This document shows, piece by piece, positions 2,219 through 5,329 of a stretch of 64,000 nt of DNA (position 1 is its first letter; the number at the start of each line of letters is the position of its first letter). The notes under the pieces were generated by a model. It saw only the letters and a list, made by a program, of their open reading frames with translations, was not told where the DNA came from and ran no database searches. Origin of the DNA: Plantibacter flavus (lineage in GTDB: Bacteria > Actinomycetota > Actinomycetes > Actinomycetales > Microbacteriaceae). The position numbers and the translations under genes were made by a program. The stretch spans positions 254,825-318,824 of the forward strand of contig NZ_FXAP01000001.1 of the NCBI RefSeq assembly GCF_900177615.1. Direction: 5' to 3'.

Positions 2219-3091
2219 ATGACCGCACAGATCCTCGACGGTAAGGCCACGGCCACCGCCATCAAGTCCGAACTCGCGATCGAGGTGGCCGCGCTCAAGG
2301 AGCGCGGCATCTCGGTCGGGCTGGGCACCGTCCTCGTCGGGTCCGACCCGGGTTCGCAGTGGTACGTCGCCGGGAAGCACCGCGACTGTGCCGAGGTCGG
2401 CATGGAGTCGATCCGACGCGACCTGCCCGAGACGGTCTCGCAGGAGGAGCTCGAGGCCGTCCTCGACGAGCTCAACGCCGATGAGAGCTGCACCGGCTAC
2501 ATCGTGCAGCTGCCGTTGCCGAAGCACATCGACACCGACGCGATCCTCGAGCGCATCGATCCCGAGAAGGACGCCGACGGGCTCCACCCGACCAACCTCG
2601 GGCGTCTCGTGCTCAACGTGAACCGTCCGATCCACACGCCGCTGCCGTGCACGCCGAAGGGCGTCATCGAGCTGGTGGAACGTCACGGGATCAGCTGGGC
2701 GGGCAAGCACGTCGTCGTCGTGGGCCGCGGGGTAACCGTCGGTCGCGCGATCGGCCCGCTGCTCACCCGTCGCGAATACAACGCGACGGTCACGCTGACG
2801 CACACCGGAACGGTCGGACTCGACGACATCCTCCGCACCGCCGACGTGATCGTCGCTGCGGCGGGCGTCCCCGGGATCGTCACGCGCGATGCCGTGAAGC
2901 CCGGCGTGATCGTCCTCGACGTCGGGGTGAGCCGCGAGACCGACCCCGAGACCGGCAAGTCCCGGGTCGTCGGCGACGTCGCCCCGGACGTGGCCGAGGT
3001 CGCCTCATGGATCAGCCCGAACCCCGGTGGTGTCGGCCCTATGACCCGCGTCGGTCTCCTCGCCAACGTCGTCCGCATGGCCACCCCCTGA
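2219..3091 (+). CDS. folD: Bifunctional methylenetetrahydrofolate dehydrogenase / methenyltetrahydrofolate cyclohydrolase
   Basis: Oxidises 5,10-methylene-THF with NADP and hydrolyses the methenyl form to 10-formyl-THF for purine and formyl-Met synthesis. The 290 residues are family length. Seen: the N-terminal substrate segment with [23 protein letters not shown], the [16 protein letters not shown] nucleotide-binding loop, and the C-terminal NPGGVGPMT signature. The ATG at 2219 is 11 bases after glyA. The Shine-Dalgarno is weak, suggesting coupling to glyA translation. The gene ends 8 bases before a long palindrome. Confidence 0.97.
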
Positions 3092-3098
3092 CCCAGCC

Positions 3099-3159
3099 CG
3101 CGAACTGTCACTCGACGCTAGTCCGGCGCCCCGCGACTAGCCGGAAGTGACAGTTCGCG
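3099..3159. repeat. Long imperfect palindrome, copy 1 (after folD, overlapping nuclease 3' end)
   Basis: The outer arms CGCGAACTGTCACT (3099-3112) and AGTGACAGTTCGCG (3146-3159) match perfectly over 14 bases. Then comes a 4-by-4 mismatch (CGAC against CGGA) and inner 7-base arms GCTAGTC and GACTAGC around a GC-rich loop. The minus-strand nuclease gene ends inside it: its stop codon lies in the inner arm at 3118-3120. It could also serve as a terminator for folD, though no T-tract follows. Confidence 0.9.
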
Positions 3160-4035
3160 AGCCAGTGCAGTGAGGATGGGCGACGGGTCCGTCAGGTGCG
3201 AGCGATTCACCCGGATGACCCGCCAGCCCGCTGCCATGACGCGGTCGAGGCGATCGATGTCGTGGAAGATCTGCCGTTCATCCGTGAAGTGGGTGCCGCC
3301 GTCGTATTCGACGAGGACCCGCTGTTCGGGATACACCAGGTCGCCCAAAGCCAGAAACCGTCCGTGGGCGTCCGTGATCACCTCGTTGACCAGCGGTTCC
3401 GGAAGGCCCGCGCGGACGATCAGCAGGCGCAAGGCGGTCTCCATCGGCGAATCCGTCCGAGGCCGCATCATCGAGAACGCGAGCCGCAGCCGTTTCGCGC
3501 CGCGACGGCCGTTCATCCGTGCCAGCCCGCGGACGATCTGCTGCTCCGAGGCCAGTGGTCGCTTGCGGCGGAGCAGCACGTCGCCGGCGATCACCAGGTC
3601 GTCCAAGGGGAGCCGGGTTCCGAGCTGACACCAGGCGTCGACGGCGGTCAGTACCGGCAGTCCTTCGACGGCGACGACTTCCCAGTGGTCCCCGTCGAGT
3701 TGATGCCCGCGCACGCCCGCTCCTCGAGGCGCGCGTGCCGGCGCGATGGAGGCGACATCGAGTGGTGCCTCGTGTTCCCAGGTGGGCACGGGGAGGCCGT
3801 GCAGGGCCGCCGCGCTCACGTGGCTGAAGAACTGCCCGTCGTGCAGGAGCGGGGCATAGGCGTGACAGCGTCCGGGGATGTCCGTGGGCTGGTCGAGCGG
3901 TGCCCGGACGCCTCGGTGCGGCGTGGCGAGGTCGCTCGCTCGTAGCCGCGATCGAGGCACGCCGAGTTCGTCGGCGTCGGCCATGGAGAACGGCTGCTTG
4001 TCGAGTTCGAGGGGGAGGGGGCGTCGGAGGACCAT
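3118..4035 (-). CDS. DUF559-type (Vsr-like) nuclease-fold protein with AbiEi-like N-terminal region
   Basis: A 305-residue protein of unknown role. The C-terminal third looks like the DUF559 / Vsr-like PD-(D/E)XK fold: helix Glu near 199 (SPMETALRLL), Asp232 (LGDLVYPE), Glu243 and Asp245 (VLVEYDGGTH), then a conserved D..R.....GWRVIRV segment at 260-276. The N-terminal part (SRLRASDLATPHRGVRAP, then SHVSAAALHGLPVP) resembles the antitoxin-type domain often fused to such proteins in actinobacteria. Catalytic-looking residues are intact. Residues 293-305 and the stop are encoded by palindrome copy 1, and copy 2 lies about 50 bases upstream of the start. Function is unknown; DNA cleavage at the palindromes is a guess. 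Confidence 0.75.
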   Translation of the reverse strand: MVLRRPLPLELDKQPFSMADADELGVPRSRLRASDLATPHRGVRAPLDQPTDIPGRCHAYAPLLHDGQFFSHVSAAALHGLPVPTWEHEAPLDVASIAPARAPRGAGVRGHQLDGDHWEVVAVEGLPVLTAVDAWCQLGTRLPLDDLVIAGDVLLRRKRPLASEQQIVRGLARMNGRRGAKRLRLAFSMMRPRTDSPMETALRLLIVRAGLPEPLVNEVITDAHGRFLALGDLVYPEQRVLVEYDGGTHFTDERQIFHDIDRLDRVMAAGWRVIRVNRSHLTDPSPILTALARELSLPASRGAPD

Positions 4036-4083
4036 CCCACCACGGTGCCGACTGTGGCGCTTCGGCGTCGGAAGTTCTCCACA

Positions 4084-4158
4084 CCCTGCCCGCGAACTGT
4101 CACTCGACGCTAGTCCGAGCCGTCGGGACTAGCCGGAAGTGACAGTTCGCGGGCAGGG
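4084..4158. repeat. Long imperfect palindrome, copy 2 (between nuclease and galK)
   Basis: The same core as copy 1, in the same orientation, with longer perfect outer arms of 21 bases (4084-4104 and 4138-4158, each containing CGCGAACTGTCACT or its complement). The same CGAC/CGGA internal mismatch follows, then inner arms GCTAGTCC and GGACTAGC at 4109-4116 and 4126-4133. Only the apical loop differs clearly between copies. It ends 10 bases from the galK stop and lies about 50 bases upstream of the nuclease start, so it may end galK transcripts or shape the nuclease leader. Confidence 0.9.
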
Positions 4159-4168
4159 GAGGGGGAGG

Positions 4169-5325
<1,157 letters not shown>

Positions 5326-5329
<4 letters not shown>

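Follow-up and report, generated by a model that had tools for sequence, protein, structure and literature searches.

Matching palindromes bracket DUF559 nuclease genes of Plantibacter flavus and other Actinomycetota, a possible counterpart of REP/RAYT units

The stretch of DNA analysed here, called the window, comprises 64,000 nucleotides of the Plantibacter flavus genome (G000; 4.3 Mb in 11 contigs). Near its start, a single nuclease gene and a pair of long palindromes lie between two genes that we take to be folD-like and galK-like, names that follow the original prediction. The features of the locus are as follows.

ends at 3091, plus strand: presumed folD-like gene, the outer neighbour before copy 1
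3096..3162, no strand: palindrome copy 1, 5 nt past the end (3091) of the folD-like gene
3118..4035, minus strand: nuclease gene, 305 aa, with an N-terminal AbiEi-like part (weak) and a C-terminal DUF559/Vsr-like (EDxHD-type) domain
3208..3450, minus strand: putative nuclease domain, residues 196-276, with E199, D232, E243, H249 and D259 and similarity to 3r3p
4084..4158, no strand: palindrome copy 2, 5' of the nuclease gene and just past the 3' end of the galK-like gene
4169-5329, minus strand: presumed galK-like gene, the outer neighbour beyond copy 2

Two palindromes of the same orientation had been described around one gene, and both are present (3096-3162 and 4084-4158). They are direct, start 992 bp apart and share 89% identity over 72 nt, and the whole palindrome-gene-palindrome unit measures 1,063 bp. 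The pair does bracket the gene, but copy 1 covers the last 45 bases of the reading frame. The 14-base outer arms and the 4-by-4 internal mismatch that had been reported hold for the window copies, whereas the place and size of the mismatch vary among 17 copies in the genome (see below). Folding z-scores were -7.58 for copy 1 and -8.97 for copy 2, and none of 200 shuffled sequences folded as well. Within the window alone, the arm word gave four matches at two mismatches, a number equalled in 10 of 100 shuffles and thus nonsignificant. The hairpins are strong, but the T run of an intrinsic terminator does not follow them; the sequence there, read by eye, is G-rich.

The window protein itself matches Pfam DUF559 weakly (E value of 0.0015; 18.9 bits, under the curated cut-off of 20.6), but 63 of 70 homologues match this family at E <= 0.01, 52 match REase_MTES_1575, and 2 match AbiEi_4; of 20 relatives, up to 5 are matched by any single AbiEi model of PADLOC. 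Residues E199, D232, E243, H249 and D259 are invariant in the 70 homologues. Foldseek searches with the AlphaFold2 model of the window protein (mean pLDDT of 93.3) returned no match at E <= 0.001. The top-ranking hit, a Toxoplasma mitoribosome chain, was set aside (rmsd of 15.7 over 218 columns), leaving as the meaningful match 3r3p, the catalytic domain of the homing endonuclease I-Bth0305I (E value of 0.027; TM-score of 0.66 by target length). A sequence profile search placed 3hrl first (E value of 0.00094) and 3r3p second (E value of 0.057). The Vsr-like nuclease of the original prediction is therefore upheld by its relatives, the model and the catalytic residues together, and support for the fold is moderate because Foldseek gave no match at E <= 0.001; on those grounds, we assign a putative Vsr/EDxHD-type domain with moderate confidence. 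Homologues at E <= 1e-20 were found in 204 of 299 Microbacteriaceae genomes.

VsrA of Caulobacter, another DUF559/Vsr-like nuclease, has been linked to DNA damage and cytosine methylation (PMC12907096); its main text mentions neither "palindrom" nor "hairpin". The N-terminal part of the window protein has weak similarity to AbiEi antitoxins of type IV toxin-antitoxin systems. In AbiE, the antitoxin gene adjoins an AbiEii toxin gene; here, there is no room for a partner gene between the two neighbours, which are the presumed folD-like and galK-like genes named after the original prediction.

We searched the P. flavus genome for further copies of the window palindrome, whose family we call F1, with F2 to F6 designating palindromes of paralogous DUF559 genes. 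The 13-nt arm word has 15 matches per strand genome-wide at up to one mismatch, and the reversed word has none. Seventeen F1 copies were aligned, and a covariance model built from them recovered the same 17 places (34 matches over both strands), in a scan that scored 150 of 2,504 first-look candidates and may miss divergent copies. Across the 17 copies, the arms are conserved and the center is variable, with the exception of a short AGT/ACT pairing in its inner part. There was little support for compensatory changes that would preserve an RNA structure, since only 1 of 17 predicted pairs is altered on both sides. At 14 of the 17 sites, a simple gene call places at least one neighboring gene that ends towards the palindrome.

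Fifteen of the 17 F1 copies have no adjoining DUF559 gene. The proposed count thus did find dispersed copies, of which 2 of the 17 lie beside a DUF559 gene. The seven other DUF559-like genes of P. flavus lie at least 32 kb from any F1 copy, ruling out that F1 marks every such gene in the genome. At least five of these seven genes carry palindromes of their own, different from gene to gene, and we therefore widened the comparison to other genera.

F1 could have been a classical REP sequence of a RAYT encoded elsewhere in the genome. This idea was not supported, as Y1_Tnp (PF01797) was found in none of the seven Plantibacter genomes, in a search whose control was positive in 6 of 14 known genomes, and F1 has no GTAG tag as a family: within 16 nt of the palindrome foot, GTAG occurs in 1 of 17 copies and CGTC also in 1 of 17. 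That F1 might be common across Microbacteriaceae was unsupported as well. Model R1 matched 12 of 299 genomes, with only 15 candidates scored per genome; the five strong matches are all in Plantibacter, and the other seven are weak, with different outer arms or probably due to chance. In a genome of another genus (G032), two palindromes (L127 and L132) have the inner part GTCACTT...CTAGT...ACTAG in common with F1 and differ from it in their outer arms, which looks like an exchange of this part.

We then compared loci with a DUF559 gene with other genes for the presence of matching palindromes on both sides. The sample was made up of 40 stretches, each 20 kb long and containing a homologue from another genus, the window, and 11 P. 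flavus stretches picked for their F1 copies. Five of the 40 DUF559 genes in the 20-kb stretches (L167, L169, L170, L172 and L186) escaped our home-made gene caller and are not among the 36 retained. With 25 loci from a family-wide homologue search, these 36, one of which is the window, gave 61 DUF559 loci; the 657 control genes came from the 20-kb stretches (520), the 11 P. flavus stretches (85) and the window (52). At least two palindromic 9-mers were shared between the flanks of 15 of 36 DUF559 genes, compared with 5 of 653 others. In a stricter test, which took the best imperfect palindrome on each side and required a score of at least 13 and a similarity of at least 18, a matched pair was detected at 39 of 61 DUF559 loci and at 2 of 657 other genes. 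Without the demand on palindrome score, the counts were 41 of 61 and 4 of 657 (Fisher's P = 7e-47), and they were hardly altered by removal of the window locus (40 of 60; P = 8e-46). By this test, a matched pair was lacking at 20 of the 61 loci.

Of the four control exceptions, two (L172 and L182) have low palindrome scores, and the palindromes of the other two, namely a neighbor of the DUF559 gene in L173 and a gene in L123 that lies between two F2 copies, are also found at DUF559 genes. The L123 open reading frame (1874-2386 in that stretch, on P. flavus contig C9) encodes 170 aa and is situated between two copies of the F2 palindrome (TTCGCCCA...TGGGCGAA) at a distance from the nuclease gene of F2.

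Intergenic regions of these genomes often hold long palindromes, which are present in 301 of 1,314 control flanks by the score used, and hairpins of this kind might stand beside DUF559 genes by coincidence. Matching pairs are rare at control genes (4 of 657), however, and the matching is specific to the locus, since in 39 of the 44 cases in which both flanks have a palindrome, the closest match of the left palindrome is the right one of its own locus. The control genes rule out chance adjacency of palindrome and gene, and we regard coincidence as an extremely improbable account of the association.

A second collection gave comparable results, with a matched pair in 55 of 74 loci (those of 80 that had enough flank) and none by this test in 19 of the 74; after removal of loci with a palindrome identical to one of the first set, the count was 47 of 64. 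Outside Microbacteriaceae, homologues from a plasmid collection had a matched pair in five of six cases: three of three in Arthrobacter (two strains), two of two in Tsukamurella (one strain) and none of one in Nonomuraea, whose match spans just 31% of the query and whose gene start was a guess. Carriage by phages was not supported, as none of the 69 viral stretches that fit a pattern encodes a relative. An unverified fecal phage record gave one weak match, with a palindrome on the 3' side and no matching pair.

The units are compact. Fifty of them, from the second collection, have a median length of 1,150 bp and median gaps of 75 nt on the 5' side and 11.5 nt on the 3' side; in 17, the stop codon is overlapped by the 3' palindrome. 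The palindromes have a median span of 62 bp. The orientation of the pair is not fixed (21 direct, 17 inverted and 44 undecided). In 79 matched pairs, identity is 91% over the aligned arms and 68% over the central 16 nt.

The identity of the palindrome tends to depend on the protein and not on the locus. Matched pairs were found in 90 units, or 79 after collapsing proteins at least 90% identical. Among the collapsed set, three of five nonsyntenic pairs of units with at least 60% protein identity share their palindrome (L197-L318 at 74%, L152-L292 at 69% and L264-L274 at 63%), compared with 10 of 363 pairs at 45-50% identity and 22 of 2,538 below 45%; these counts are low, and the only measure of synteny was tblastx of the 1.25-kb flanks. 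Dispersed copies are found in other families too. Allowing up to two mismatches, genome G193 has 14 occurrences of the cognate arm word; these form six paired palindromes, of which two lie at the gene, as well as two isolated half-sites. The same word is absent from seven other genomes, and the reversed word is absent from G193 and present once in each of two others. In 872 kb of P. flavus, there are six copies of the F2 palindrome, F3 is found only at its own gene, and no true pair was found for F4 to F6, whose genes lie outside these 872 kb. The count for F7 (47 pairs, compared with 10 for the reversed word) was too loose to be used. A third copy of the palindrome was present in 2 of 21 other 20-kb stretches. 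In G005 (C2:433236-434173; L079 and L084), an F2-type DUF559 gene appears to be in two pieces, and F2-type palindromes still adjoin it.

Within Plantibacter, F1 matches on both strands numbered 34, 34, 38, 36 and 36 in five of seven genomes, corresponding to 17-19 places, and there were none in G004 and G005. The window gene is present at 97-100% identity in the same five genomes; the best homologues of its protein in G004 and G005 are 42% and 44% identical, the latter in two pieces. In all five carrier species, the two palindromes are spaced by 992 bp and the gene is at the same place. In G004 and G005, the gap between the folD-like and galK-like genes is about 85 nt, free of the unit and containing an unrelated hairpin (by eye). 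Comparison of the folD-galK junctions, as had been advised, thus yielded five genomes with the unit and two without. The opposing idea, that gene and palindromes are fixed at this locus in all relatives, fits the constant place and spacing in five species but not the two unit-free junctions. Similarly, a common repeat unrelated to DUF559 genes would account for 17 dispersed copies, 15 of them away from any DUF559 gene, but not for the co-occurrence of palindrome and gene in five genomes and their joint absence from two. As G004 and G005 form one branch in a small tree, however, this co-occurrence may represent a single event.

Orthologues were identified for 14 of the 15 F1 copies outside the window (11 by both flanks and 3 by one), using fetched copies of G001, G002 and G003 and one G006 locus, which hold part of the copies of those genomes. 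The F1 family is thus old and stable in the clade, and no movement of the window unit was seen in the five carrier species. At 14 orthologous F1 sites, each compared in three or four species, the arms differ at 37 of 2,340 positions (1.6%), the centers at 266 of 2,337 (11.4%) and the flanks, taken 10-60 nt away and often coding, at 333 of 6,852 (4.9%). The contrast between arms and flanks is about threefold, with some bias possible in arm divergence, since copies that have lost their arms would escape the search. Without site C3:373, the differences are 31 of 2,160 (1.4%), 185 of 2,151 (8.6%) and 247 of 6,575 (3.8%), respectively. Divergence of the centers resembles the dS of the window gene (0.07-0.13), and the dN/dS of the nuclease gene is 0.09-0.18 in the 10 pairs of the five species. 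The slow change of the arms and the low dN/dS suggest that arms and protein are both maintained. The system of the window lineage now looks fixed, its protein and palindrome arms being kept by selection.

Site C3:373 (L003, L338, L366 and L355) is peculiar in that, relative to the shared right flank, the palindrome reads one way in G000 and G002 and the opposite way in G001 and G003. Its left flank is not common to the species, and the site may mark an inversion at the palindrome.

Paralogous loci differ between species in whether they hold a unit. The palindrome-gene-palindrome arrangement of the F5 locus is present in G000 and G003, whereas G001, G002 and G006 have a solo palindrome and no gene, and G004 and G005 have a related, shorter hairpin. 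In G002, the center of the solo copy resembles that of the left copy of G003, and in G001 that of the right copy, a pattern that would result from recombination between the palindromes at different points, with loss of the gene. The gene may instead have been gained at F5; the tree is weakly supported (43-80% at the relevant nodes). At the F3 locus, G000, G001 and G002 contain the unit, with a degraded left palindrome in G000 and G001, and G003 and G006 contain an unrelated hairpin and no F3 palindrome.

The F5 locus, where species have either a solo palindrome or a full unit at the same point, would agree with homing: a free-standing endonuclease would cut the solo palindrome in a gene-less copy, and repair would copy the gene in, leaving a palindrome on each side. 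The nuclease resembles I-Bth0305I by fold, weakly by profile and in its invariant E, D, H and D residues, with 3r3p ranking first among the meaningful matches by fold and second by profile. A homing gene usually interrupts its target. Here, however, the gene is free-standing between two other genes rather than inside an intron or intein, and both flanking palindromes are intact. Further differences from I-Bth0305I are the AbiEi-like N-terminal part and the solo palindromes elsewhere; copies at many unrelated sites would be left unexplained by homing, and F5 can also be read as loss by recombination between palindromes, given the solo centers of G002 and G001. We consider homing quite unlikely.

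The palindromes might otherwise serve in regulation, as binding sites and transcription ends, with the AbiEi-like part binding them to control its own gene and the genes whose 3' ends hold palindromes, and the nuclease domain serving another task, such as defense. Such a role would agree with the AbiEi matches of some relatives (2 of 70 with AbiEi_4 and up to 5 of 20 with PADLOC models), with the genes that end towards 14 of the 17 F1 copies, with the unrelated hairpins seen by eye at unit-free sites, and with the slow change of the arms. An operator is needed upstream only, yet a matching copy is also found downstream, overlapping the stop codon in 17 of 50 units. Terminators, in turn, require neither a common sequence at many loci nor a different one for each paralogue, and no T run stands behind the window copies (by eye). 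A regulatory role is therefore possible but unlikely.

The arrangement most resembles REP/RAYT systems, in which a tnpA-REP gene is flanked by two cognate palindromes, further palindromes are dispersed, protein and palindrome coevolve, and the gene is tied to its palindromes (PMC2817692, PMC8266576 and PMC3733652). In the same sources, the REPs of Escherichia coli carry a conserved bulge in the stem. The DUF559 systems have in common with these a gene between two cognate palindromes, dispersed copies and an association of palindrome with protein; the tie between gene and palindromes is encountered as well, though solo copies occur without a gene at F5. They differ in several respects. The enzyme is of the Vsr/EDxHD type, by our assignment, rather than a Y1 transposase of the HUH-tyrosine class. 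RAYT-flanking palindromes are inverted, whereas the window pair is direct and orientation is mixed across DUF559 units. The GTAG or CGTC foot tag is found in only 1 of 17 F1 copies each, and the DUF559 palindromes are longer (median of 62 bp) and low in copy number where counted (6 in G193 and 17-19 in Plantibacter). The original prediction had likened the locus to a REP/RAYT layout in which a PD-(D/E)XK-type protein replaces the Y1 transposase. The matched pairs at 41 of 61 DUF559 loci and 4 of 657 other genes, together with the absence of Y1_Tnp matches from all seven Plantibacter genomes, support this layout well beyond the window locus.

The observed properties are paired palindromes specific to each lineage, dispersed copies, slow change of the arms, and presence or absence of the unit at fixed sites. 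As for how they arise, the protein would recognize the arms of its own palindrome, probably as a hairpin or cruciform, and nick it. Repair or copying after the nick would seed solo palindromes between genes, and the same process might occasionally move or lose the gene-bearing unit. We propose that protein and palindrome act like a REP/RAYT pair, with a hydrolytic nuclease in place of the HUH-tyrosine transposase. Our preferred reading, which we hold to be somewhat probable, is that of a REP/RAYT-like system with an EDxHD/Vsr-type nuclease, belonging to a widespread palindrome-gene-palindrome class in which each gene lineage has its own palindrome. A broader proposal stands at about even chances, namely that DUF559/EDxHD nucleases with an AbiEi-like N-terminal part form another class of bacterial enzymes that process palindromes, one that evolved independently and extends across Actinomycetota, each nuclease making, spreading and maintaining its own palindromes as has been proposed for RAYTs.

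REPs have been proposed to stem from a single class of enzymes, the Y1 transposases, and some REP-like families, the CGTC repeats, apparently have no dedicated transposase (PMC3733652). In the PMC literature searched, with subscription journals and bioRxiv mostly outside its scope, no description of an association between DUF559 genes and palindromes was apparent. In this uncharacterized nuclease family, the palindromes next to each gene give a clear clue to the substrate. Each gene brings its own predicted target, so that binding or cutting can be tested for dozens of paralogues.

Other palindromes of these genomes were noted along the way. A gene encoding 355-357 aa, which is not DUF559 and by eye probably specifies a membrane protein, lies between two F1 copies spaced by 1,160 bp in G002 (C5:92621-93863; L111) and G006 (C6:950010-951252; L112), where P. 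flavus has a single copy (C8:234609). A second palindromic repeat, CTTCGACAGGCTCAGGGACCG, is more abundant in P. flavus and forms arrays at C3:92940-105000 and C10:409760-409892; no gene associated with it was identified. Two small palindrome families span about 70-90 bp in the same genome: CAACTCCTG...CAGGAGTTG, at C10:36193 and 190502 and at C3:408540 and 408699, and AACTCAGGA...TCCTGAGTT, at C10:52634 and at C3:396401 and 412117.
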